Shown here: piece by piece, positions 7,937-27,901 of the stretch
Layout of the letters: each line of letters starts with the position of its first letter
Numbering within the stretch: position 1 is the stretch's first letter
Source: Bacteroidales bacterium
Lineage (GTDB): Bacteria; Bacteroidota; Bacteroidia; Bacteroidales; UBA12170
Direction of reading: 5' to 3'
Length of the DNA stretch: 32,171 nt
NCBI GenBank assembly: GCA_016744655.1
Contig: JADGDY010000045.1
Location: 1 to 32,171, forward strand
Translations under genes and position numbers: made by a program
Notes under the pieces: generated by a model
Database searches by the model: none
The model's input: the letters and a program-made list of their open reading frames with translations, nothing else
Told to the model about the DNA's origin: nothing

Positions 7937-8085
7937 TCAGGGCAAGTTCGATTACGTTTTGAAATCGACATGTATTTTAATAAAAAGAAAATCTATCCAC
8001 GGATTCCGGTAATTTTCATGGTGTTTATAATCCGTGTTAATTTGCGATAATCCGCGGACAAAAATAAAGTGTGCGTCTGCCCTGA
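7937..8085. repeat. 149-bp dispersed element with 8-bp terminal inverted repeats, copy 1
   Basis: The element begins TCAGGGCA (7937-7944) and ends TGCCCTGA (8078-8085), a perfect 8-bp inverted repeat. Two internal blocks recur in opposite orientation about 21 kb away. 7961-8000 matches 29218-29257 with one mismatch, and 8033-8067 is identical to the complement of 29087-29121. The layout is that of a small non-autonomous, MITE-like element, but no target-site duplication was recognised and no transposase is present in the window. Confidence 0.7.
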
Positions 8086-8281
8086 AGTAAGGATAATACA
8101 AAGTAAATAAGCTAAAGAAATTTTGTATTACATCCGAATCATCTCCTAGATACATTCATGGCAATTCTTTTAAATTAGTACAAACTAGCGATTCTTATTT
8201 TAGAGCGAGCCAACGAACATCCATTCGTGAATTTGCTGCTATCATAGTTAAAATAATCATTCCACCATTCCATAAATTGAA

Positions 8282-8289
8282 TAACTTTG
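8282..8289 (+). promoter_or_regulatory. -7 element (TAACTTTG) of dnaG, very close to the start codon
   Basis: TAACTTTG is a full match to TAnnTTTG and ends only 9 nt before the ATG at 8299. Transcription should start at or just before the ATG, giving a leaderless or nearly leaderless mRNA. It also argues against an in-frame TTG at 8287-8289 as the start, since that codon lies inside the promoter element. Confidence 0.55.
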
Positions 8290-8298
8290 CGGCCACTA

Positions 8299-10245
8299 AT
8301 GATTCCACAAGAAACCATACAAACCATAATAGACACTGCTCGAATTGAGGAAGTGGTAGGCGACTTTGTACAACTCAAAAAACGAGGGGTAAATCTGTTG
8401 GGTAATTGCCCATTTCATAATGAAAAAACGCCATCGTTTACTGTAAGTCCTGCCAAAGGTATCTTTAAGTGTTTTGGATGTGGTAAAGCAGGGAGCCCAG
8501 TGAGTTTTATCATGGAACATGAGCACAAAACTTACCCTGAAGCTTTAAAATACCTCGCCAATAAATATTCTATTGAAGTAGAAGAAGAGGAACAAACCGC
8601 TGAGCAAATCGCCCATTATAATGAACGGGAGAGTATGTTGCAGGCTGTTGACTTTGCTTCCAAATACTTCACCAATCAACTGTGGGAAACAGAAATAGGC
8701 AAATCTGTTGGACTAAACTATCTCACCGACCGTGGGATTAGTACTCAAATGATTAAGAAGTTCCAATTGGGATATAGCCCCGATGAATGGACGGCCTTTA
8801 GCGATCATGCCGTAAAGAATGCCCATGAACTTGAATTGCTTCAAAAGACAGGATTAACCATTCTTCGTGAAAATGGGAAACGATTCGACCGCTTTAAAGG
8901 TCGTGTGATGTTTCCTATTCATAACCTCACCGGACAGGTGATTGGTTTTGGTGGACGAACCCTAAGCAACGATAAGAAACAAGCGAAATATCTCAATTCT
9001 CCTGAGTCAGATTTGTATCACAAAAGCAAGGTGCTTTATGGTATTTATTTCTCCCGAAATGAGATGGTGAAAGCTGATAATTGTTTCTTAGTGGAAGGAT
9101 ATACCGATGTAATTTCGCTATTCGATGCAGGTGTTGAAAATGTTGTAGCCAGTTCTGGAACTGCTTTAACTCAAGATCAGATAAAGCTTATTAAGCGATT
9201 TACTAGCAATATCACTGTATTATATGATGGTGATTTTGCAGGAATTAAAGCAGGATTAAGAGGAATCGATATGATTCTGTCGGAAGGTATGAATGTGAGA
9301 GTAGTCATGTTCCCTGAAGGAGAAGATCCTGATAGCTTTGCACGTTCTCATCGTTCTTCTGAGGTGAAGGAATATATTAATAATGAAGCGCAAGATTTCA
9401 TCAGCTTTAAAACCAATTTACTTTCGGAGGAGGCTAAAACAGATCCCATAAAAAGGGCAGGTTTGATTAAAGAAATCGTTCAAACCATTTCAATTATTCC
9501 TGACGCCATCACCCGACAGGTTTATGTGCGGGAATGCTCGAGCTTACTCGAAATGCCTGAACAAACCTTGTTAAACGAGTTGAACAAACTCCTCAGGAAA
9601 AAATTTCAGGAGACTACCAAGTCTAGCTATCCGGAACCTCAACAACAGATTCCTCAAGTTAATCGAATTGAGAGCCCTGAGAAAAAAGAAGCCTCTAGAT
9701 ATGCTTATCAAGAGGAAAACCTAGCTCGCCTTTTATTAAAATTTGGTCACCAAGATTTTACAGTGCATCAGAAAGGTGAAGAAGATATTGAAGTAAATGT
9801 TGCAGCCTATATTGTAGATCAAATGGAATTGGATAATCTGAAGTTTGATAACCCCTTATATAAAATCATTTATGAGATTTTCGATCAATGTTTGGAAGAG
9901 GAAGAATTTAAGGAGCAAAGTTTTTTCACCAACCATCCTAATCAAGAAATTGCACAATTCTGTATAGATATTTCAATGGATAAATATGAGCTTTCAGAAA
10001 ACTGGATGGCGAAAAAACAGATATATGTAAAGTCAGAGGAGGCTGATTTGTTGGGATTAAGTGTGATGACTTCAGTACGATCTTTCAAATTAAGCATTAT
10101 TGAGAAAGAGATTAAAGATCTGCAAAACCAGTTAAAAGCAGTAAAAGAAGACGAGGAATTGATGAGAATTTTGAGCCTTTTAAGTAAAAAAGAAAGTCAC
10201 AAAAAAAGATTAAGTGGTGATTTGGGTCGCATCGTCCTCCGATAA
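8299..10245 (+). CDS. dnaG: DNA primase DnaG
   Basis: A 648-residue replicative primase that makes RNA primers for lagging-strand synthesis together with the DnaB helicase. The N-terminal zinc-binding domain has C37-P-F-H40 and C58-F-G-C61, with the usual F.VSP...F.CFGCG pattern. The central RNA polymerase domain contains MFPIHN..G.VIGFGGR and the TOPRIM fold. In that fold, VEGYTDV supplies the catalytic Glu, LYDGDFAG the metal-binding Asp pair, and FPEGEDPDSF the third acidic motif. The C-terminal ~200 residues are divergent, as expected for the helicase-interacting domain. I chose ATG 8299 because the upstream in-frame TTG (8287) overlaps the promoter element. Length and motifs are typical of the family. 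Confidence 0.97.
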   Translation: MIPQETIQTIIDTARIEEVVGDFVQLKKRGVNLLGNCPFHNEKTPSFTVSPAKGIFKCFGCGKAGSPVSFIMEHEHKTYPEALKYLANKYSIEVEEEEQTAEQIAHYNERESMLQAVDFASKYFTNQLWETEIGKSVGLNYLTDRGISTQMIKKFQLGYSPDEWTAFSDHAVKNAHELELLQKTGLTILRENGKRFDRFKGRVMFPIHNLTGQVIGFGGRTLSNDKKQAKYLNSPESDLYHKSKVLYGIYFSRNEMVKADNCFLVEGYTDVISLFDAGVENVVASSGTALTQDQIKLIKRFTSNITVLYDGDFAGIKAGLRGIDMILSEGMNVRVVMFPEGEDPDSFARSHRSSEVKEYINNEAQDFISFKTNLLSEEAKTDPIKRAGLIKEIVQTISIIPDAITRQVYVRECSSLLEMPEQTLLNELNKLLRKKFQETTKSSYPEPQQQIPQVNRIESPEKKEASRYAYQEENLARLLLKFGHQDFTVHQKGEEDIEVNVAAYIVDQMELDNLKFDNPLYKIIYEIFDQCLEEEEFKEQSFFTNHPNQEIAQFCIDISMDKYELSENWMAKKQIYVKSEEADLLGLSVMTSVRSFKLSIIEKEIKDLQNQLKAVKEDEELMRILSLLSKKESHKKRLSGDLGRIVLR

Positions 10246-11040: not shown

Positions 11041-12849
11041 TTATGCTTCAGAAAATTTCTTTCTAATTTCTAAGCCAAAATCATGAAGTTTTTGTTTGCT
11101 GTCTTCTAAATCCTTTGTAATTTGTTGTTTAGTATCCTCAAAAGAATGCTTCATTTCACTGAAAAGTCCTTGATAATACTTCACACCCTCTTGTAGATTT
11201 TCGTTGAAGTTCACCAAGCTTTTTTCCTGTTTTTTGGAGAAATCGGTTTTAACTTCATCTATTTTTTCTCGCAAATGGTCCATATATAATTGTAATTCCT
11301 TCACAAACATATGAGGACGATCATTACGGTTTATAATATTATTTCTGCCATAAATATGACCTACCATATCTTTTAAAGAAGATTCTTTTTCGTAGTAGGC
11401 GATGTTTGGTCCAGGACAAATTGAAATCCCAGGACCTTCAACTTTAGTGTCAAGTCCTTTGGAAACTAAAGCTGCTGTTCCTAATCCCACGCAAACACAA
11501 GATTTTTCTACAATTTTATTGTATTTATCTTGATGCTCAGCTTTAGGTAATTCTAAATCATCAAGCTCTTTTATCTTAAGTCTTTGGTAACGATAAGAAG
11601 CAGTACAAAGTCCTTTTTCGGTATATTCATAATTGAGTTCCACATACTTTTTAGGACAGAGGCTACCCGGTTTTCCCATGTCAATACGAGCTTGCTTCTC
11701 AATATCTTTGGTATTTCCCCTTAAGCTATTAAAAGGAACACCCAATGGAGAAATTCCGCTTAGGTATAAGTCTTTCTCTCTAGCATTAGCCAATTGTTTC
11801 CTTGTGGCATCATCAACAGAGGTAACTTCAGGTACCAATAAAAATGGTGATCCCCAACCTACAGAATCCACTTCGAAATGATCAAGTAAAAAGGAATGCT
11901 CTTCAGCCGTACCCACTCCGCCTTGAGCCGACATTCGTAAAGGTAAAGGCTGTTTAGGAACAGGTTTGTTCTTTGCAACTAATGCTTTTTCTATTAGACT
12001 CCAAACTTGTCCAACTAATTCATCTTTTTTGGCTTTGAATTCCTCTAGAACTGGGCCCATTAAATGACCTTCGGTTGCAAAAGCATGGCCTCCACAATTT
12101 AATCCAGATTCTACACGGTATTCAGAAACCCAAAGTCCTTTTTTTGCTAAATATTTTCCTTGGATTAATGCAGAGCGATAGTCGGAAACTTTTAATATGA
12201 TTCGTTTTTTTAATTCACCATCCTCATTTGGATAGAAATCGTCAAACTGATCCATATAATTATATAGTCTAGGATTCATTCCTGCAGAAAGAACAATAGA
12301 TGAGTTGAGATTGCTATTTGCAAACCCTCTTAAAGCAGCGTGAGCATCATTATATTCAACTGGCAACCTCTCACCATTTCTATAATTATGCTTGTCAACT
12401 TTTGTCATTATATTCACATCTACATTTCCAATGCTCAAGTGATCTTTAATCCAAGATTTTACATCGTTTAGATTGAAATTTTCAACCTTCAGCTGGAATT
12501 CTTTTTTTAGTTCTGAACTATCGGGTAATAGATGGAAATATTCTTTTATTTCTTCCTTTTTATCTTGAGTTGCAGTTTTAAACTCTTCAAGTTTTGATTC
12601 TGCAATTTCTTTCATGAGATTAAGATAAGAGGTGATTCTCTTAGCACGAAAATCATCTATCTTATTATTTATTTCTTGATAAGGAAGCTCAAATTTTTCG
12701 CTGTAAAATTTTCTCATTTTCTCGACTAACATATCGTCAACCAATGAAATAGTAGAGTCAATTCCTAAATGAGCCACCCTAGCTGGAGAATCTATGGTAA
12801 AACCGATTCCCATTACAGGTATATGGAATGAGTGTTTTCTTTGATTCAT
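11041..12849 (-). CDS. Conserved-looking protein of unknown function, possible flavin TIM barrel with coiled-coil tail
   Basis: A 602-residue protein that I do not recognise with certainty. Near the N-terminus HIPVMGIGFTIDSPARVAHLG (from residue 7) resembles the first strand of nitronate monooxygenase/FabK-type FMN barrels. SGLNCGGHAFATEGHLMGP (residues 248-266) and AQGGVGTAEEHSF (308-320), followed by DSVGWGSPFLLVPE, resemble the glycine-rich phosphate-binding strands of such barrels. Five Cys cluster in the C-terminal half (398, 415, 451, 453, 478), including SCVCVG and ICPGPN, suggesting a metal or Fe-S site. The last ~80 residues are a charged, probably coiled-coil helix. No signal peptide is seen. 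An upstream in-frame ATG (12897) would add 16 residues that look like translated intergenic sequence. The function is not assigned. Confidence 0.7.
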   Translation of the reverse strand: MNQRKHSFHIPVMGIGFTIDSPARVAHLGIDSTISLVDDMLVEKMRKFYSEKFELPYQEINNKIDDFRAKRITSYLNLMKEIAESKLEEFKTATQDKKEEIKEYFHLLPDSSELKKEFQLKVENFNLNDVKSWIKDHLSIGNVDVNIMTKVDKHNYRNGERLPVEYNDAHAALRGFANSNLNSSIVLSAGMNPRLYNYMDQFDDFYPNEDGELKKRIILKVSDYRSALIQGKYLAKKGLWVSEYRVESGLNCGGHAFATEGHLMGPVLEEFKAKKDELVGQVWSLIEKALVAKNKPVPKQPLPLRMSAQGGVGTAEEHSFLLDHFEVDSVGWGSPFLLVPEVTSVDDATRKQLANAREKDLYLSGISPLGVPFNSLRGNTKDIEKQARIDMGKPGSLCPKKYVELNYEYTEKGLCTASYRYQRLKIKELDDLELPKAEHQDKYNKIVEKSCVCVGLGTAALVSKGLDTKVEGPGISICPGPNIAYYEKESSLKDMVGHIYGRNNIINRNDRPHMFVKELQLYMDHLREKIDEVKTDFSKKQEKSLVNFNENLQEGVKYYQGLFSEMKHSFEDTKQQITKDLEDSKQKLHDFGLEIRKKFSEA

Positions 12850-13063
12850 TTTTCGAATTTTCGCTTTAAATATTCGGTAAAAATAGATTAAATTCAAACA
12901 GAGACAAGGATATTATTAGACTTTAACACATAATTGTTCAAATACACGAATGTTGCAAAAAACAGAGTATGTTAATCTGGATTTTGTATGAGTAAAATAA
13001 ACGATTGTTTTATAATTTATTTTTTCTGAATGAACCCTAAAATTTAACAGAAATCACTATAAA

Positions 13064-20503: not shown

Positions 20504-22297
20504 CTACTTTCTCAAACTACGAACAACAGCATCCAAATAAGCTGTAAGAGGATACATCTTTTCATCGTACCATAATGATGCAAAATACAAACCTATTGGA
20601 GCGGATACCAATCCGTTTTCTCTATAGTAGACATCTAACCATTCTAGACCTTTATCGCATTGTGCTTTGTATTTCCCTGTTTGCAATGCGGCTACAGAAA
20701 GTGCTGTTTCCTCTATTGTTCCAGTGATGTTTTTATCACCTCCCCAGCTTCCATCTTTATTTTGAACTTCTGTTAGAAACTGTTCTGCTTTGACGCAAAG
20801 TGACTGAATGGTTTTGGTTAAATTCTGATGAGAGATTGATAGTTCTTTAGCATCGTTAAGGTAGCTCAAAACTCTAGCAGTTCCGTAAACTGGATTTTCA
20901 TGGGTTGGTGTATGTTGATTTCCAAACCATAATGGCAACCAAGCACCATCCTCTCGTTGTTTCTTTTGTAGGTATTTTATAGATTTATCGAGGGAACGCA
21001 TATAGTCTCTTATCTGCTTTTTGGATAGCTTGCCATGAAAATGATGGAGGATGGTAACTATAGCTAAAAAGGCATGACCTGTTAAATCTGCGCAACTTTG
21101 GTCGAAAGGAAGTTTGCCCCAGCCTTTTGAAAAAGTAGGGAACCCACCGTCATTATTTTGCAATTTAAGCAACCAGTCTCCACCCACTAGAACCTCATCA
21201 GCAATGGTATGATGAGGAGCTAATTGCAGTAAAGCCAGAATAGCTCCTGGTGTGTCATCTCCATCTGGAGCAGAACCTGAGAAATTAGTCCAACCCCAAC
21301 CTCCAGGAGAGGTTCCATTAAAAGGATGAATGGTTTTGTTTTGAACAGACTTTAAATGAGCTATCAGCTTTTCTTTTTGTCCTGAGTTCAAAACCTCCTC
21401 TTTTTTATGCCCTAATGCTTTAATGCTTAAACTGGTCACCCATGTGGAAAGGTCTACATCAATTGGGAAACCACCATCTTCTCGCTGCATTCGCTTTAAA
21501 AATACTATTCCTTTTTTCACGACATCAGTATTTCCATATCCAGCATTTGTTAGACTTAAGGAAACGAATGCGGTAAGCGGAATAGCTTCTAAAAAACCTC
21601 CACTTGAGGGCATGGATTTATGCAAGATTCTCAGGGCTTTCTTCTCGGCACTGCTTCGAATCCATTTAGCTAATCTCCCTGATTTCTTCTTTTTGAAAAT
21701 AACAATTCCGACTGCAATTAGTGCTGGAATAGCATAACTCACCACACTTAAATTTAGCAATCGGTATATTTTCCGAGGCATTAAAGCCAATTCGAAAGGT
21801 AAATGAGGAATCTTTTTAAAAGCATCTTTCTCAGGGATTCCACATAAAGCACATAAAGTTAATATCGGGACTGAGAAGGTATAGTCTTTTTGATAGTGTT
21901 CCAAAATGGCATTGGCAACTCGATTGGAATTGATATCGATATTGTTTTGCAGGAGATAAACAGCAATTTGAGCTTGTAATTGTTTTAATGAGGCATCTTG
22001 ATGGGAATATAGATTTAAAGCCGCATAAACCAAAAGAGAAGTGGAGGTATTACCCATACTTTCTGATGTATCTCCATAACTGCCATCAGTATTGATGTTG
22101 TTTTTCAACCAAGTGAATCCGAGTTGGATTTCCTGTTTATGTTGTTCAGACGAATGAAAATGAAAAGCGGCAATGGTAACCGCAACTCCCAAAGCACTAG
22201 AAGATAGTTTCCCAGTCCAAAATCCATCTTTGTTTATATCATTGACAAGGATTTGACTCAATTCTCTAAATCGTAATTCTAGTTTTTGCTTGTTCAT
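20504..22297 (-). CDS. Squalene-hopene-cyclase-like class II terpene cyclase
   Basis: A 597-residue alpha-barrel terpene cyclase. The catalytic class II motif DxDD is intact as P344-D-G-D-D-T349, preceded by GGWGW as in squalene-hopene cyclases. QW-type repeats occur at 271-278 (QREDGGFP), 380-387 (QNNDGGFP), 447-456 (QREDGAWLPL) and 512-520 (QNKDGSWGG). YGTARVL (471-477) matches the conserved YGT region. A hydrophobic stretch (SVVSYAIPALIAVGIVIF, 184-201) fits the membrane-dipping helix of the family. The central Asp of DxDD protonates an alkene or epoxide to start cyclisation. It is the last gene of a five-gene operon, overlapping the upstream gene by 4 nt. Without a squalene synthase nearby, the substrate may be a polyprenyl diphosphate or alcohol. 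The family is firm, the substrate unknown. Confidence 0.88.
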   Translation of the reverse strand: MNKQKLELRFRELSQILVNDINKDGFWTGKLSSSALGVAVTIAAFHFHSSEQHKQEIQLGFTWLKNNINTDGSYGDTSESMGNTSTSLLVYAALNLYSHQDASLKQLQAQIAVYLLQNNIDINSNRVANAILEHYQKDYTFSVPILTLCALCGIPEKDAFKKIPHLPFELALMPRKIYRLLNLSVVSYAIPALIAVGIVIFKKKKSGRLAKWIRSSAEKKALRILHKSMPSSGGFLEAIPLTAFVSLSLTNAGYGNTDVVKKGIVFLKRMQREDGGFPIDVDLSTWVTSLSIKALGHKKEEVLNSGQKEKLIAHLKSVQNKTIHPFNGTSPGGWGWTNFSGSAPDGDDTPGAILALLQLAPHHTIADEVLVGGDWLLKLQNNDGGFPTFSKGWGKLPFDQSCADLTGHAFLAIVTILHHFHGKLSKKQIRDYMRSLDKSIKYLQKKQREDGAWLPLWFGNQHTPTHENPVYGTARVLSYLNDAKELSISHQNLTKTIQSLCVKAEQFLTEVQNKDGSWGGDKNITGTIEETALSVAALQTGKYKAQCDKGLEWLDVYYRENGLVSAPIGLYFASLWYDEKMYPLTAYLDAVVRSLRK

Positions 22298-23148
22298 CTC
22301 TCCTCCTCGTTTACCATGTTTCCTAGAGCCAAGAGGCCATAAAATGTATACTCCAAATCTTTAGTTTCATCACCATCTCCCGATAAAAAAGCTCCTCCAG
22401 AATAGTTGTTCTGTACAAAATTGAGGCAGCCTGGTATAATAAAACGCAAATCGTAATTACTCTCTTTTAAAGCAAAAAGTGCTACTCCAGTAGAAAGACC
22501 ATCGGCATTATTCACTGACTCGAAAGCTTTAAAACCTCCACTTTCAAATATATAATGGTCTAGTTTTTTATGGAGTTTATTTGAGTTTAAACCGACCATT
22601 TTTCTTGCAAAAATTAAAGCCGATACAAGACTACAAGGAATATTGTTATGACCTTTATAGAAAAACAGCCAAATTCGAGCAAAGAAATAGACCATCCCTT
22701 TGTGTTTTCCTCCAGCATCTATTACCAAGGCAATGAGAAAAAACTGGTAGGACATATCAATCGTTCTGCCTTTCTTTAAAATCGTTCGAACGATAGAAAT
22801 AGAAGATTGTTTTTCCTTTTTACTATTTAGTCCAGTCTTAATTAATTCTAAAGCCAATTCTTCAATTAAGCTATTGTGTTCTATTTCATTTTTCTCAAGA
22901 GCAAAGCCTTTTAGAGCTGAAAGTTCTTGGTGTTTTTCTGTAGCTAAACTCAACCAAAGACCAAAAAGGGAATAGTATAAATCAGGCTTTCCTGCTCGGT
23001 CAATAAAAGCACCATTTTTATGCTGTTGACTTTCTATAAAACTTTTAATCTCATTTTGAACATCTTTGTCCAAAGCCAAAAAACCTGCTCGAACATAAGA
23101 AACAAGTTGCAGATAAACGGGTGTTGTATTTTTACTATTCCTCAACAT
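22294..23148 (-). CDS. Small prenyltransferase/terpene-cyclase-fold protein
   Basis: A 284-residue protein with alpha-alpha toroid repeats like those of protein prenyltransferase beta subunits and squalene cyclases. NGAFIDRAGKPDLYYSLFGL (residues 45-64) and SGGAFLSGDGDETKDLEYT (250-268) followed by FYGLLALG are the clearest units. It is about half the length of a class II cyclase and lacks a clear DxDD. GDGDET (257-262) is acidic, but not in the usual context. The Zn ligands of protein prenyltransferases are not convincingly conserved (DLYYS instead of D.YH). It may be a partner or second half of the cyclase encoded next, which it overlaps by 4 nt. It begins immediately after the stop of the fusion gene upstream. 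The fold is likely; the activity is unknown. Confidence 0.7.
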   Translation of the reverse strand: MLRNSKNTTPVYLQLVSYVRAGFLALDKDVQNEIKSFIESQQHKNGAFIDRAGKPDLYYSLFGLWLSLATEKHQELSALKGFALEKNEIEHNSLIEELALELIKTGLNSKKEKQSSISIVRTILKKGRTIDMSYQFFLIALVIDAGGKHKGMVYFFARIWLFFYKGHNNIPCSLVSALIFARKMVGLNSNKLHKKLDHYIFESGGFKAFESVNNADGLSTGVALFALKESNYDLRFIIPGCLNFVQNNYSGGAFLSGDGDETKDLEYTFYGLLALGNMVNEEER

Positions 23149-24696
23149 TTAATCTTTAAATATTTTACCCAGGACAGCATATAAACTCAATCGCAGTTTA
23201 GCATTATCTAGCTTGTCCAACTCATTATAACAATGTTGAATATAGTTGTTTAGAATCTCATCAGCTTTTGAAACTAAATCTAGTTCATAAACTCTTTTTC
23301 TAAATCCGGAGACCTCCACAAAGTCGCCATCTTCACCGTTTTCATAGAGTAAAGCAATGAGAAACGGGAAATCAGAAATTTTCTCGTCTTGCTCTTCTGC
23401 CCTAAATTCGTTTAAATCGTCACGAATTTGATAGGCAATTCCAAATAAATCTGAAAAATCAGTCAGTATGTGCAAGTCAGAATCCTCAGCTTCGCCCAAA
23501 ATGGCTCCTAGCAGCAATGCTACTTTTATGGCCTCCCCAGTTTTATCTCTAAAAATCTGAAGTATTTCTTTTCTTGAAACTCGATTTCTTCCTTGGTTAA
23601 AGAGAATATCTGCTCCTTGTCCTTGAGTGAGTTTTAAATGAGACTCGGAAACCTTCTGAAAACCCTTAGCCATTATCTCAGCTTTTACTGGAAGCTCTGC
23701 TAAAACTCGATATCCTTTTCCTACCAGAAAATCACCAATATTGATGGCCTGAGCAATGCCATATTTTTTATGAGCAGTAGGTTTGTTATAACGTAAATCA
23801 CTTTCATCCTCAATATCATCATGAACAAGTGAAGCCTTGTGAAAACACTCAATAATTAATGAAAGTTGGTGTAACACATCTTCATTTGTTTCGCTGGAAT
23901 ATGCCTTATAACTTAATGCTGCAAGAACTGGCCGCATGCGTTGACCGCCAATCTGGATATATTCCTTAGCTAAGTTTTCTGTATGGTCATTGGTGTTGAA
24001 ATATTTGTCTAATGCTCCATTCTCGTAAAAGTCTTCAATCTGCCATTTCAAAGCAGAAATAGAAATGGGTTGAAGATTCTTATTGAACTCATAAGCTCTC
24101 ACTTCATCAAACAACCATGGCAAATCGATTTTTGTATTTTCACATCCATCATACATTAAGGGGAGTCCGATTACAGGAACAGCAGATTTAGAAACGGGCC
24201 CAAAAGAACGCTGGAGCACAGGCATACAACTGACTCCGATTACCGCATCAATGGAACCTTCTTCCACTAAACCAATGGCTACAGTTGTTCCTTCGGCAAC
24301 TAAAGTAGTATAGCCTAATTTTTCGGCTTCCAATAAAATATCATCTACAGGACAAGCTTTACAAGCGGCACAGATTAAGCCGAGCTCATCAAACACACCT
24401 TTACAGGCAGAATTGTCCTTTAAACATTGAGGTAATAATAACAAACGACGTTGATATGGGATGGACTCCACCGTTTTTCGCCAGCTCTCATTCCCTAATA
24501 ATATGATGGTAAAGTCTATATATTCTTCTGATACTTTTAATTTCTTCAATAAGTCAACAGCCAATTCTTCCATTTGTGCAAAAGGAGCTGGAGGGAGTAA
24601 ATTTATCTCCTCCACAAATAATCTACTTTCTTTACGAAGTAGATTCCGCAGTGCATCGTCTTCTGGAACTTTCAATATTCTTTTTGATTTATCCAT
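23149..24696 (-). CDS. DUF116 / polyprenyl diphosphate synthase fusion
   Basis: A 515-residue two-domain protein. Residues ~25-200 match DUF116, with a Cys cluster at C91, C98, C109, C112 and C115 (GLICAACKACPVDD) and C157, pointing to an Fe-S or metal site. Residues ~215-515 are a trans-isoprenyl diphosphate synthase. They include GGQRMRP (250-256), the first Asp-rich motif D293-D-I-E-D297 and, in place of the second DDxxD, D426-D-L-N-E430. Small residues Ala288 and Ser289 before the first motif suggest a product longer than C15. These enzymes condense isopentenyl diphosphate onto allylic diphosphates. The fusion to DUF116 is unusual. It sits 3 nt after the radical SAM gene, so it probably makes the chain used by the downstream cyclases. 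Confidence 0.88.
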   Translation of the reverse strand: MDKSKRILKVPEDDALRNLLRKESRLFVEEINLLPPAPFAQMEELAVDLLKKLKVSEEYIDFTIILLGNESWRKTVESIPYQRRLLLLPQCLKDNSACKGVFDELGLICAACKACPVDDILLEAEKLGYTTLVAEGTTVAIGLVEEGSIDAVIGVSCMPVLQRSFGPVSKSAVPVIGLPLMYDGCENTKIDLPWLFDEVRAYEFNKNLQPISISALKWQIEDFYENGALDKYFNTNDHTENLAKEYIQIGGQRMRPVLAALSYKAYSSETNEDVLHQLSLIIECFHKASLVHDDIEDESDLRYNKPTAHKKYGIAQAINIGDFLVGKGYRVLAELPVKAEIMAKGFQKVSESHLKLTQGQGADILFNQGRNRVSRKEILQIFRDKTGEAIKVALLLGAILGEAEDSDLHILTDFSDLFGIAYQIRDDLNEFRAEEQDEKISDFPFLIALLYENGEDGDFVEVSGFRKRVYELDLVSKADEILNNYIQHCYNELDKLDNAKLRLSLYAVLGKIFKD

Positions 24697-24699
24697 AGA

Positions 24700-25875
24700 C
24701 TATCCGTAGGCCCCCAAACCAAAAAATGCATTTTTCTTTGCGAAACGATAAGCCCAACTTTTTTCTCGAACTTGCTTTGCAGAACCATGACTAGGCACTT
24801 TCTTCATGGCACGTAAACGCTCCAATTCATTACCTCTACCAGAAGAATCTTTAGCTTGATGTTTTTCCGCCATTTCTGTAAGCCACTGTGGGTCATCCAT
24901 CACAATGCAACCTTCAGTTTTTAATGGAATTTCAGCTTTAAACTCTTCTAAAAAACTAGAGTTTTTATAAATATCTTCAAGCGGAGCATCTGCCACATTG
25001 TTGGTGGCAAATTGAATCACTGGGCAAGGTTCAATATCTCCAGAAGCATTAATATGATGACTGAGCCCAGAAGCAGCAGGACAAAGCCCTTTGCCATCTT
25101 GGTCCCAATACGCATCTACAATAACTATATTATATTTACTGCGTGCCTCCACCATAAAAACTCGAAGTTTTTCAATTTCTTCTTGCGAAAGGGCCAAATC
25201 CACTTCTGCATCTTTCCCTACTGGACGATAAATATAATACCACAAATACAAAACTCCTCGGTCAATAAGAGAATGGATAAAGTCTTCGGAAAAAGCCAAA
25301 GCGAGGTTGGATTTACAAACACTCATGGCCACCCCGGTAACCAAACCGGCTTGAGTGGAATGGTCAATTGCAGCTTGAGCTTTTTGGTAAACGTCTTTTC
25401 CACCACGTCTGATATCGGCTACATCCATATCGCCTTCAAAACTAATTAGAGGAGTTACATTGGCTAGCTTTTTCAAATCGTTGGCAACTTTAGAAGTGAG
25501 TAAAGTTCCGTTGGTGAAAAGTTGAAAATAACAATCGCTGTGTTTTCTAAAAACTTCAAAAAGAGGAGGGTACATTAAAGGCTCGCCGCCTAGTATTCCA
25601 AAGAAATATGAACCCTTTTCTTTGGATTGGTTGATGATGCTATCTAGCATTTCGGGTTTCATTTGTGCATTGCTCTTTTTACCGGTCACCCAACAGCCTT
25701 GACAATTTAAATTACAATCGTCAGTAACTGAAATGAAATGAAAGGCTGGAAAGAACTCACCTTTTTTCATTCGCTTTTTAAACCGGCTTAATCCCATTGC
25801 ACCTTTGATGCCCAAGTTGAACACAAATTTGTACAAGCATTTCTTATCAGTTTTTATGAGGAGTTGCTTTAACAT
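24700..25875 (-). CDS. Radical SAM enzyme of the terpenoid operon
   Basis: A 391-residue radical S-adenosylmethionine protein. C54-N-L-N-C58-Q-G-C61 is the CxxxCxxC [4Fe-4S] motif, GGEP (96-99) binds the SAM amino group, and LFTNGTLL is typical of the barrel. Further Cys at 265, 284 and 323 (GLCPAAS, EPCPV, EGCIV) form a SPASM-like C-terminal region that could hold a second cluster. The ~60-residue C-terminal tail is basic. It is not an obvious HpnH (adenosylhopane-forming) protein. It directly follows the ferredoxin gene (TAG then ATG) and precedes the DUF116-synthase fusion by 3 nt. A redox partner and isoprenoid enzymes in one operon suggest radical modification of a terpenoid or of a lipid precursor; this is inference. 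Confidence 0.85.
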   Translation of the reverse strand: MLKQLLIKTDKKCLYKFVFNLGIKGAMGLSRFKKRMKKGEFFPAFHFISVTDDCNLNCQGCWVTGKKSNAQMKPEMLDSIINQSKEKGSYFFGILGGEPLMYPPLFEVFRKHSDCYFQLFTNGTLLTSKVANDLKKLANVTPLISFEGDMDVADIRRGGKDVYQKAQAAIDHSTQAGLVTGVAMSVCKSNLALAFSEDFIHSLIDRGVLYLWYYIYRPVGKDAEVDLALSQEEIEKLRVFMVEARSKYNIVIVDAYWDQDGKGLCPAASGLSHHINASGDIEPCPVIQFATNNVADAPLEDIYKNSSFLEEFKAEIPLKTEGCIVMDDPQWLTEMAEKHQAKDSSGRGNELERLRAMKKVPSHGSAKQVREKSWAYRFAKKNAFFGLGAYG

Positions 25876-26646
25876 CTATTTTTCCTCCAATCCTTTTTTG
25901 TATTCATTTATTGCTTTTAACTTTTCCTCCTCAGCTTGTTGCATGATGCCTTCCTTGAATATGCTTCGTCTCATGCTGTTTCTTTCGTTAAGCATGACAA
26001 ATAATCCCGGTTTTTTAGCAGGAGAATATTCGCTTTTCTCAGCTCCAGGTTGTGCTCCTGATAAAACGGCATTTTCGGGCAAACGAGGAAATATAATTGC
26101 TGAAGCTGGACAAGTTCTACCACAAGCCGGACAGTTATTTTTACAATTTAGAGGATTCAACACATCAAGCTTTTTGCTCTTGAACTTATATACTCCAAAA
26201 ACACAAAATCGAGCACATTGTCCACAAAGGGTACAGAGTGATTCATCGATTACTGGATACCAAGCTGGAACCTCTAAACTACTTTTGAGTACTTTATAGT
26301 TTGGAATAGAATTACTATCTAATGTCTCTTGTTTTAGCCAACTAACAATTTCTTCTTCTGAGAGTTCTCTGAAGTTTAACACCTCGAAGTTAGATAGTTT
26401 AATATTATTCTGGAGGAACATATTTTCTATCGCTCTAGGATAACAAGCTACAATAAACACCTTGTTGTATTTAGAGTCTAAGGAGTTTATGAATTCCTTT
26501 TCGTTTAGTGAAAATGCACATAGGTCATGGAGCTCGAAAACATCGATATGTAGGTGCTGAAAGGATTCAGCTAATACGTTTTGTTTTTTATCGGTGATGA
26601 TTTTCGCACCACAGTTACAATATAATAGACAGTTTTGTTTCTCCAT
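25876..26646 (-). CDS. HdrA-like 2[4Fe-4S] ferredoxin protein
   Basis: A 256-residue iron-sulfur protein, first gene of the operon. Residues 1-105 resemble the N-terminal domain of heterodisulfide reductase subunit A: C10-N-C-G, LHDLC43 and VFIVACYPR. Residues 138-148 give C138xxC141xxC144xxxC148. Residues 168-179 give C168xxxC172xxC175xxxC179. Together these are two cubane clusters. The C-terminal ~60 residues are charged and helical. A plausible role is to deliver electrons to the radical SAM enzyme encoded next, or to the DUF116 domain. There is no signal peptide, so it is cytoplasmic. The promoter region upstream carries a -7 element and a direct repeat. The ferredoxin assignment is firm; the specific partner is inferred from gene order. 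Confidence 0.85.
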   Translation of the reverse strand: MEKQNCLLYCNCGAKIITDKKQNVLAESFQHLHIDVFELHDLCAFSLNEKEFINSLDSKYNKVFIVACYPRAIENMFLQNNIKLSNFEVLNFRELSEEEIVSWLKQETLDSNSIPNYKVLKSSLEVPAWYPVIDESLCTLCGQCARFCVFGVYKFKSKKLDVLNPLNCKNNCPACGRTCPASAIIFPRLPENAVLSGAQPGAEKSEYSPAKKPGLFVMLNERNSMRRSIFKEGIMQQAEEEKLKAINEYKKGLEEK

Positions 26647-26852: not shown

Positions 26853-27803
26853 TTAATACGATTTTCGTAAAGTAAAAATAGTAATCTCACCAGGACAATT
26901 AAAACGAAGTGGGACTCCAGAAACGCCACAGCCTTTACTGGTAAAGCCTTGCATATTTCCCATCTTCCAGAAACCTTTTATAAATTCGTCTCCTTCTTTT
27001 TGATGACTAATGAGTGCTTTGCCACCAGGTAAACATACTTGTCCACCATGGGTATGACCACAGAGGTATAAATTATAATTATGGTCTGCTGCCACATCGG
27101 CAAGTTCACTGGTATGAACTAGAGCTAATTTGAAGCCTGGCTTATCGCTAAAGCTTTGCAAAGCAGAATCAGTATAATATGAAAACGGATCATCGGCACC
27201 CGACACTATTATTTTCTGCCCATCCCGCGCCAACTCAATAGTCTCGTTTACTAAAAAACTCATTTTTAAACTTTCTTCATACTCTGTCATCAACCAAGTA
27301 TCATGATTACCTAAAATGGCCAAAGGAGGAAACTCCTTTTGCAATAATTCAGAGAGCTCCTCTAAAGGTTTTAATATTTGAATGAAATCACCGCTATTTT
27401 CTGATCTATAGTCACCAGTTAAAACAGCCATATCAAATTCTACCTGATCTACTGCATGTAAAATACTATGCTTAATCTCTGGTGTAGAATCTATATGCAA
27501 ATCTGTTAGATGAAGAATTCTAAAACCATCAAAATTAGAAGGAAGATTGGAAAACTCTAATTCATGGTGATTGATTTCTATTCTTCGAGCATTCTCATAG
27601 CCTTTTTTATAAAATCCAGAAATTTTGGCTCCCCATACTAGAAAACCAAGAATCCTCTTGAAGTAGTTCCAGTTGCTTTTGCTCTTTTTACCATGCCTTT
27701 TGTGCTTAAACTGATCGGTTTCCAAAACAGAACGCGTTGTGGCCCAAAGCAATCTTTTTTCTTTGCTTGCTAGTGATTTTTTGAATTTATGAGGTTCTTT
27801 CAT
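26853..27803 (-). CDS. Calcineurin-type metallophosphoesterase
   Basis: A 316-residue phosphoesterase with a complete dimetal site: D101-L-H103 (LTDLHID), G-D131 (TGDYR), G165-N-H-D168, H230 (LVHTSE) and GHTHGG (249-254). The architecture, with a basic N-terminal region and a short hydrophobic patch before the catalytic domain, resembles YaeI-like and LpxG/LpxH-like membrane-associated enzymes acting on phospholipid or UDP-sugar-lipid diphosphates; the substrate is not determined. I chose ATG 27803 over 27857 because TAACTTTA (one mismatch to the -7 consensus) ends just before it. A 206-nt gap separates it from the terpenoid operon, which has its own promoter, so the two are probably independent. 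Confidence 0.88.
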   Translation of the reverse strand: MKEPHKFKKSLASKEKRLLWATTRSVLETDQFKHKRHGKKSKSNWNYFKRILGFLVWGAKISGFYKKGYENARRIEINHHELEFSNLPSNFDGFRILHLTDLHIDSTPEIKHSILHAVDQVEFDMAVLTGDYRSENSGDFIQILKPLEELSELLQKEFPPLAILGNHDTWLMTEYEESLKMSFLVNETIELARDGQKIIVSGADDPFSYYTDSALQSFSDKPGFKLALVHTSELADVAADHNYNLYLCGHTHGGQVCLPGGKALISHQKEGDEFIKGFWKMGNMQGFTSKGCGVSGVPLRFNCPGEITIFTLRKSY

Positions 27804-27901
27804 AGCATATAAAGTTAATAAAAAATATTTAAGATTACAATTTGAAGAATAATACATGCATTTTTATCAGCTCATTAACACAGCTGTATCTATATTTCTG
27901 A

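Follow-up and report, generated by a model that had tools for sequence, protein, structure and literature searches.

A five-gene operon of Bacteroidota predicted to make a cyclic polyprenoid lipid without a need for squalene

Five adjoining minus-strand genes in the genome of a Bacteroidales bacterium (GCA_016744655.1, contig JADGDY010000045.1) seem, on balance, to encode a dedicated pathway in which a cyclic polyprenoid (terpenoid) lipid is made without a requirement for squalene; its product is probably an undescribed cyclic lipid, the radical chemistry and the cyclic terpenoid nature being predicted from the families to which the proteins belong. The genome is 86.8% complete, and the window, the whole stretch of DNA that was analysed, is 32,171 nt long. 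The block runs from position 26646 to 20504 with all its frames open in the ORF analysis, and the ORF coordinates agree exactly with the gaps of 0, 3 and 0 nt and the 4-nt overlap given in the preliminary description. Compared with three relatives the operon has dN values of 0.12-0.35, its synonymous sites having reached or almost reached saturation, and its genes are under purifying selection; the open frames, the dN values and the invariant sites described below rule out a pseudogene or artefact in the window. A scan of the window against Rfam gave no match above the gathering scores, and promoter and terminator patterns in it showed no excess over shuffled sequence.

The five genes are inherited together. 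A scan of genome contigs took in 80 of 261 relatives. The order of the five genes is retained in 65 of 80 named loci, with 12 of the remaining 15 interrupted by contig ends. Within the taxonomic order the cyclase and radical SAM genes co-occur in the identical 11 of 247 genomes, belonging to nine families (Fisher 2.4e-19, a statistic that ignores kinship). The kept order and the co-occurrence across genomes rule out a chance gene neighbourhood, and the possibility raised earlier, that the genes are not conserved together in related genomes, did not hold. Where the genes are dispersed their partners are still present, which counts for a dedicated five-gene pathway: the two genomes with no Fe-S gene at the locus carry it at another place, and genome G410 has the cyclase on one contig, the fusion on a second and the Fe-S/radical SAM pair on a third. 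The cyclase is the loosest-linked gene: 39 of 62 loci have it within 60 nt of the neighbouring toroid gene, whilst the gaps reach 3.1 kb, and one genome, a MAG that is perhaps incomplete (L106), has four of the five genes with the cyclase not found.

Across about 90 loci, any tailoring gene conserved beside the operon occurs in a minority at most, the biggest neighbour cluster covering 23 loci among ORFs of at least 80 aa, and conserved flanking tailoring genes were therefore rejected as part of the system. The listed clusters, those found in at least five loci, are mostly housekeeping genes, together with transporter-like genes in eight loci, a permease in six, an ABC ATPase in five and a PQQ-propeller protein in 14; some loci also have Fe-S electron-transfer genes nearby. 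A search for plasmid relatives of the fusion matched 180 records, none across more than 80% of its length, and the toroid protein had no plasmid match. A search of the open-access literature, judged on titles, the starts of abstracts and a few passages, found no paper on the operon, and within that literature the earlier statement that no named pathway with this gene set is known stands.

The cyclase gene (20504..22297) encodes a protein of 597 aa that matches both squalene-hopene cyclase (SHC) type domains above their cut-offs, the C-terminal SQHop_cyclase domain (PF13243) with 94.6 bits and the N-terminal one (PF13249) with 52 bits. This two-domain sequence and an invariant DxDD motif place it in the class II terpene cyclase superfamily, and we predict a class II cyclase of SHC fold that acts on an isoprenoid. 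The motif, already described as an intact DGDD, reads D345-G-D347-D348-T349; all four of D345, D347, D348 and T349, as well as D404 and H408, are invariant in 73/73 homologues, whilst residue 346 varies between G, A, C and V. H408 aligns with a His of one SHC reference; another SHC and the Bacillus relative have Arg. Against the squalene-hopene cyclase equivalog (TIGR01507) the protein scores 69.7 bits and does not reach the cut-off of 431.1, and among families with solved structures its profile scores are 96 bits for SHC, 50 for drimenyl-PP synthase, 40 for lanosterol synthase and 27 for ent-CPS. The operon cyclases form their own clade in the tree, separate from the SHC references used, so that neither this nor the score bears out the grouping with ordinary squalene-hopene cyclases that the preliminary description had named among the findings that would refute its reading. 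The branches are long, support is SH-aLRT only and the tool warned of a possible artificial attraction between the operon branch and that of the diphosphate type, and for these reasons the tree leaves the nearest known cyclase group unsettled. Bacterial drimenyl and diterpene class II cyclases share the DxDD chemistry, acting directly on the prenyl diphosphate, and drimenyl-PP synthase is the second-best solved-structure family; the operon cyclase, however, keeps SHC-like segments near both ends (P.E..LP and P.GLYF..LWY.EKMYPL) that are missing in a Streptomyces relative of the diphosphate type (L143).

The gene for the DUF116-polyprenyl diphosphate synthase fusion (23149..24696, 515 aa) carries both domains on one frame, with 150.5 bits to polyprenyl_synt and 107.4 bits to DUF116; domain searches thus agree with the earlier naming of this fusion, as they do for the radical SAM enzyme and the SHC-like enzyme. 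DUF116 occupies residues 48-196, with seven Cys invariant in 78/78 homologues, and the synthase begins at about residue 239. Both Asp-rich motifs of the synthase are present, D293, D294 and D297 of the first and D426 and D427 of the second being invariant in the same 78 homologues, and the fifth position of the second is E in 58 and D in 20. The residues before DDxxD give a rough rule for the chain length of polyprenyl synthases; here positions -5 and -4 are A,S in all 78 homologues. This pair is closer to the A,T of a second synthase in the genome than to the F,T of the remaining one or to the F,S of the synthase in a Streptomyces hopanoid operon (L141), and by this rough rule the synthase half would carry a signature of the long-chain type. 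The AF2 model of the DUF116 part had no match in the PDB with E<0.001. Across the phylum this part has matches in 6 of 395 genomes, these being its own genome and five weak ones (25-32% identity) that we take from their frame lengths to be unfused DUF116 proteins. A DUF116-synthase fusion with the same two domains, Psta_0175 of Pirellula staleyi, had already been noted in 2015, and DUF116 was predicted to be metal-binding, flavodoxin-like and involved in electron transfer; in the available passages of that paper Psta_0175 is not linked to an operon, to a cyclase or to a radical SAM enzyme (PMC5898192). The operon would place DUF116 in an enzymatic setting.

The radical SAM gene (24700..25875, 391 aa) matches PF04055 with 53.7 bits against a cut-off of 29.5 and has the CxxxCxxC (C54, C58, C61) and GGE motifs of the superfamily, all 12 positions that were checked being invariant in 85/85 homologues. 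C265, G279, C284 and C323 in the C-terminal part are invariant too; the full seven-Cys SPASM set is not conserved and the score against SPASM (PF13186) is 15.7 bits, below the cut-off of 21.5, and the set of C265, C284 and C323 looks like the auxiliary cluster site of a shortened SPASM (twitch) domain. Its best named models, NirJ2, GeoRSP, ScmF and AhbD, are cofactor and peptide enzymes. With an annotated HpnH it shares 23% identity over 154 residues, and the HpnH model (TIGR03470) gives 45 bits, short of its cut-off of 225.05. The Fe-S protein gene upstream (25876..26646, 256 aa) encodes an HdrA-N-terminal-like domain and a 2[4Fe-4S] ferredoxin domain, in line with the HdrA-like 2[4Fe-4S] protein first described; Fer4 is barely above its cut-off (21.9 against 21.1 bits). 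The HdrA similarity lies in the ferredoxin part, and one model extends it to the N-terminal domain. Twelve Cys and D41 are invariant in 78/78 homologues, and the protein is likely to be an electron donor.

The remaining gene (22294..23148) encodes a small single alpha-toroid protein of 284 aa. Of the earlier term "prenyltransferase-fold" the fold agrees with the AF2 model, an all-alpha toroid with a pLDDT of 92; the sequence match does not bear it out, with 17.4 bits to Prenyltrans (PF00432) against a cut-off of 26.5, and membership of the protein prenyltransferase beta-subunit family is not reached. Foldseek returned weak neighbours, none with E<0.001, with the polysaccharide hydrolase MmpH first and GGTase beta subunits and drimenyl-PP synthase next. 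D56, Y58, Y59, D216, D264, E266 and Y270 are invariant in 74/74 homologues and F48 in 72/74, and the protein may be a monodomain cyclase, a substrate carrier or a partner of the cyclase.

From these families we infer the chain length, the order of the steps, each reaction and the product. The synthase half would lengthen an allylic diphosphate into an all-trans polyprenyl diphosphate of medium or long chain, the far end of which would be protonated by the DxDD aspartate of the SHC-like enzyme before cyclisation, with the toroid protein binding or further cyclising a hydrophobic intermediate. The radical SAM enzyme would modify the chain or the cyclised product, by removal of the diphosphate end, formation of a C-C bond or addition of an adenosyl group as by HpnH, and would receive its electrons from the HdrA-like ferredoxin and probably from DUF116, the Fe-S domain joined to the synthase.

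Bacterial routes to hopanoids and sterols, as far as they are known, pass through squalene, and the preliminary description had stated that no squalene or phytoene synthase is present. This is true of the operon's own genome, where a search with PF00494 gave no match (the same search found matches in 7 of 14 control genomes), and of 18 among the 59 further carriers, including four that are 96-99% complete, but the other 41 carry a PF00494 gene. Such an enzyme is thus dispensable rather than excluded. Eleven of the 12 PF00494 loci inspected adjoin carotenoid-like genes and no operon gene was seen at any of the 12, so that carotenoid genes were rejected as part of the system. The missing PF00494 genes count for a squalene-independent pathway, together with the kept gene order, the co-occurrence, the A,S signature of the synthase, and the SHC-like segments and profile scores of the cyclase, whilst the presence of PF00494 in the 41 carriers, the few conserved neighbours, the loose linkage of the cyclase, the limits of the tree, the roughness of the chain-length rule, the genome in which no cyclase was found and the split genes in two carriers count against it.

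An unlikely alternative is a new reductive coupling system in place of squalene synthase, made up of the radical SAM, DUF116 and Fe-S proteins, in which polyprenyl diphosphates would be joined or reduced to a hydrocarbon and the cyclase would then close the rings. Three proteins with invariant Cys of the Fe-S type, one of them fused to the synthase, are consistent with this, as are the SHC-type ends of the cyclase and the dispensability of PF00494. The archaeal tetraether synthase is a radical SAM enzyme that couples isoprenoid chains and one such structure (7tol) is among the weak PDB sequence matches of the radical SAM protein, but at 29.5 bits the likeness is at the level of the superfamily only.

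It is also quite improbable that the cyclase uses squalene made elsewhere and that the radical SAM enzyme adds 5'-deoxyadenosyl to the cyclised hydrocarbon, in the manner of HpnH acting on diploptene; PMC12583986 describes the chemistry of HpnH. The operon does resemble the hopanoid pathway (hpnCDE, shc, hpnH; an annotated example is the Streptomyces fungicidicus cluster L141) in the clustering of a polyprenyl synthase, a class II cyclase of SHC fold with DxDD and a radical SAM enzyme with some likeness to HpnH, and the PF00494 genes of the 41 carriers would fit this reading. By curated cut-offs, however, the radical SAM protein is not HpnH and the cyclase is not SHC, both scores falling far short, and the cyclase clade stands apart from the SHC references. 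The operon has its own synthase with a signature different from that of L141, and has extra DUF116, HdrA-like and toroid proteins; neither it nor its genome has a PF00494 gene, nor have 18 of the 59 other carriers, which argues against a route of the PF00494 type only. A plain hopanoid operon is not supported, given the scores below cut-off, the lack of PF00494 and the separate clade. A product other than a lipid, such as a prenyl-bearing cofactor, quinone or peptide to which the toroid proteins bind without cyclising, is likewise unlikely: the best models of the radical SAM protein and the PQQ-propeller and Fe-S electron-transfer genes at some loci point that way, but the checked catalytic residues of the cyclase are invariant in all its homologues and no precursor peptide or quinone gene is found among the neighbour clusters of ORFs of at least 80 aa.

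The squalene-independent pathway that we favour has a likeness in the sesquarterpene pathway of Bacillus (heptaprenyl-PP, YtpB, SqhC), where a longer regular prenyl chain is cyclised without squalene by a relative of SHC. Unlike that pathway, the five genes include no class I tetraprenyl-beta-curcumene synthase, and the Bacillus velezensis relative (L142) falls among the SHC references and not in the clade of the operon cyclases. An SHC-like cyclase operon that does not need squalene, found in many Bacteroidota, would be a new lipid pathway. Lipids of the polycyclic isoprenoid kind regulate membranes, and much of the molecular fossil record consists of their remains. A more specific proposal, which we regard as speculative and unlikely, is that the operon converts a regular head-to-tail polyprenyl chain of at least C30 directly into polycyclic lipids, namely membrane lipids of the tricyclopolyprenol type, with the radical SAM step replacing the oxygen-dependent or squalene-based steps by which sterols and hopanoids are made; the Bacteroidota carriers would then be a living source of tricyclic terpanes (cheilanthanes), orphan biomarkers described as having no precisely known source (PMC9247107). 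Passages of PMC6618112 and PMC6770870, consulted on cheilanthanes and tricyclohexaprenol, add nothing to this proposal. The operon in cultured Bacteroidota would allow a direct test of this long-standing question, the carriers including, from the titles of their records, Draconibacterium, Maribellus, Sunxiuqinia, Mariniphaga and Mangrovibacterium. The fusion gene is split at one locus (L105), and in Draconibacterium orientale FH5T the last two genes of the operon are each broken into two frames.

The preliminary description placed the five ORFs correctly. All lie on the minus strand, the Fe-S protein at 25876-26646, the radical SAM enzyme at 24700-25875, the DUF116-polyprenyl synthase fusion at 23149-24696, the toroid protein at 22294-23148 and the cyclase at 20504-22297; successive genes are spaced by 0, 3 and 0 nt, and the last two overlap by 4 nt. 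Pfam domains found on them are the C- and N-terminal SQHop_cyclase domains, polyprenyl_synt and DUF116 on a single ORF, Radical_SAM and Fer4. In the NCBIfam matches listed (for the radical SAM protein the best 25 of 61) all five proteins stay below the curated cut-offs, and therefore NCBIfam provides no named function for any of them. Compared with three relatives (protein identity 59-85%) dN is 0.12-0.35 over the five genes, with synonymous sites saturated or nearly so. On the same strand, 206 nt upstream of the operon, is a YaeI-like metallophosphoesterase gene (26853-27857, minus strand) that falls below the NCBIfam cut-off; none was recognised, by sequence, among the neighbour clusters listed for the operon loci.

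The preliminary description had made its reading depend on these genes being conserved together, and indeed their order is kept in 65 of 80 named loci, with 12 more cut by contig ends. These are the best 80 of 261 relatives found when named genomes were scanned with the radical SAM protein; by record titles 79 are Bacteroidota and one is labelled Chlorobiota, many being Prolixibacteraceae (Draconibacterium, Maribellus, Sunxiuqinia, Mariniphaga and Mangrovibacterium). All five genes are in order on a single strand at 64 loci, a count that includes genes truncated by a contig end and genes broken into two frames (L068, L105), and at locus L039 the five ordered genes have an additional polyprenyl-synthase-like gene (7953-8957) just upstream of the operon. 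The Fe-S gene is missing at two loci (L072 and L076) yet present elsewhere in both genomes, and at L106 the cyclase is missing, with none found in the whole genome, a 3.5-Mb MAG. With starts called mechanically, the median intergenic gaps along the operon are 2.5, 5.5, 0 and 33.5 nt (62 loci), and gaps of at most 60 nt are found, in the same order, at 50, 48, 56 and 39 of the 62; the cyclase, with the longest median gap and only 39 such loci, thus has the loosest linkage among the five genes. In the Draconibacterium orientale FH5T chromosome (L068, 12751-15720) the three upstream genes are intact, but the toroid and cyclase genes each fall into two frames, through either decay or sequencing error. 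Genes for PQQ/BamB-type beta-propellers (44 ORFs, of which 38 are downstream on the same strand) lie near the operon at 14 loci, among them L029 (10787-14669) and L030 (5331-9370), and in these last two loci are followed by more propeller, multi-Fe-S and thioredoxin-like ferredoxin genes.

Within the order the cyclase matches 11 of 247 genomes at E<=0.001, the window's own genome counted. The radical SAM protein, a query independent of the cyclase, matches the same 11 and leaves 236 without a match at a threshold of E<=1e-80 that we chose; taking the two genome samples as identical from their handles and totals, since non-matching genomes are listed in part, this co-occurrence has a Fisher p of 2.4e-19, uncorrected for kinship. 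The 11 genomes span nine families and nine genera, and neither gene matches in the only two further genomes that the sample has from the window's genus. Of the ten other cyclase-matching genomes, six have the complete operon in the same order on a single contig, in G556 the operon genes continue until a contig end that falls within the cyclase, and in G452 and G529 they are broken off at contig ends. The operon of G410 is dispersed over three contigs, one with the Fe-S and radical SAM genes (L157), one with the fusion and no radical SAM gene adjoining it (L168) and one with the cyclase among unrelated genes (L027, 7193-8974); no toroid gene was found on these three contigs.

Conservation extends to individual residues, which were checked in homologues aligned over 80% or more of the query, with the window and the duplicates L022 and L023 excluded, a set in which other near-copies may remain. 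Invariant are 12 Cys and D41 of the Fe-S protein (78/78), the CxxxCxxC and GGE motifs with C265, C284 and C323 of the radical SAM enzyme (85/85), seven DUF116 Cys, the DDxxD and the second Asp pair of the fusion (78/78), and D345, D347, D348, T349, D404 and H408 of the cyclase (73/73). Sites that vary are fusion E430 (E or D), cyclase residue 346, E169 and Y582, and toroid F48. Because D56, Y58, Y59, D216, D264, E266 and Y270 of the toroid are likewise invariant (74/74), its sequence suggests a protein with a catalytic role or a binding site for a polar group, rather than a decayed cyclase domain.

Grouping of the cyclase with ordinary squalene-hopene cyclases, in genomes that also carry squalene synthase, was among the outcomes against which the preliminary description had set its proposal. 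Against solved structures the cyclase profile scores 96 bits with SHC, its best match, 50 with drimenyl-PP synthase, 40 with lanosterol synthase and 27 with ent-CPS. All 19 operon cyclases of a 27-row tree fall into a single clade (SH-aLRT 98), separate from the references of SHC, Bacillus and Paenibacillus (92); the tree has SH-aLRT as its one measure of support, several long reference branches and a weak fork joining the groups, and, with a warning from the tree tool of a possible false joining of diphosphate-type and operon branches, does not fix the nearest known group. In the alignment SHC and the Bacillus velezensis relative have in common with the operon cyclases a P.E..LP segment in the N-terminal half and a C-terminal P.GLYF..LWY.EKMYPL block, both of which are lacking in a Streptomyces relative (L143). 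The latter adjoins a HAD phosphatase, has no annotation beyond prenyltransferase/squalene oxidase repeat protein and is read by us as of the drimenyl-PP type. From the shared segments we infer that the cyclase substrate would be hydrophobic, and either diphosphate-free or with its diphosphate held outside.

The absence of a squalene or phytoene synthase, which had been claimed from the window, holds for its own genome (86.8% complete), where PF00494 has no match against matches in 7 of 14 control genomes, and for 18 of 59 other carriers (10 genomes of the order sample and 49 from the set of 80 named loci), four of which (G410, G493, G504 and G596) are 96-99% complete, but not for the remaining 41, which have PF00494. 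Twelve PF00494 loci were read. Of five proteins of roughly 280 aa, four adjoin what we take from the sequences to be IPP isomerase-like and lycopene cyclase-like genes, three of these also a presumed carotene hydroxylase-like gene, and all seven of roughly 320 aa adjoin a presumed phytoene-desaturase-like gene. The absences and the carotenoid-like surroundings place the squalene/phytoene-type synthase outside the system, though it is present in many hosts. The roughly 320-aa protein (L133-L139), found in part of the operon-bearing genomes, differs from the crtB-like type of roughly 280 aa. A hopanoid-type operon of hpnE, synthase, shc, hpnH, ispG and dxs is carried by a Streptomyces fungicidicus plasmid (L141, NZ_CP023408.1).

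As a rough rule, bulky residues at the fifth and fourth positions ahead of the first DDxxD halt chains of polyprenyl synthases at C15-C20. These positions are Ala and Ser in all 78 fusion proteins, Phe and Ser in the Streptomyces hopanoid-operon synthase (L141), and Phe,Thr and Ala,Thr respectively in the two further synthases over the cut-off in the window's genome. By this rule the operon synthase should make longer chains, of C30-C40; such a product would fit neither FPP nor GGPP supply, which suggests that the chain is made for the operon's own pathway.

The radical SAM enzyme has NirJ2, GeoRSP, ScmF and AhbD as its nearest models, with HpnH remote (among the best 25 of 61 matches), and shares 23% identity over 154 residues with an annotated HpnH; the Cys residues conserved in its C-terminal part fall short of a complete SPASM motif. 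The Fe-S protein combines an HdrA-like N-terminal domain with a two-cluster ferredoxin domain. DUF116 has been predicted to be flavodoxin-like, to bind metal and to transfer electrons, and a protein that joins it to a polyprenyl synthase was already noted in Pirellula staleyi (PMC5898192). Modelled with AF2 from 47 sequences (pLDDT 88), the domain has no PDB match at E<0.001; aldehyde dehydrogenases and further Rossmann-like folds make up most of the first matches, with TM-scores below 0.3 on the query.

Taken together, the operon probably synthesises a polyprenyl chain, cyclises it by class II chemistry and modifies the chain or its product by a radical step, for which the two Fe-S partners would supply electrons. 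The kinds of enzyme are already known; the gene set and the cyclase clade were not found described, and no description of the operon was recognised, in the part of the open-access literature covered, subscription papers lying mostly outside this scope. Tricyclohexaprenol, in an old proposal, is a bacterial cyclised regular hexaprenol. Tricyclic terpanes are described as orphan biomarkers whose precise sources are unknown, with tricyclohexaprenol named as their precursor (PMC9247107). Our boldest reading, that the operon product is a tricyclopolyprenol-type lipid and that its Bacteroidota carriers are a living source of tricyclic terpanes, is a long shot as a whole, and the tricyclopolyprenol reading can be tested in cultured carriers.

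Elsewhere in the window a 618-aa ORF (11041-12897, minus strand) has no Pfam match at E<=0.001. In the plasmid collection, NZ_CP119142.1, NZ_OL790696.1 and other records of 2-5 Mb, labelled Neisseria gonorrhoeae or E. coli, are chromosome-like in size.
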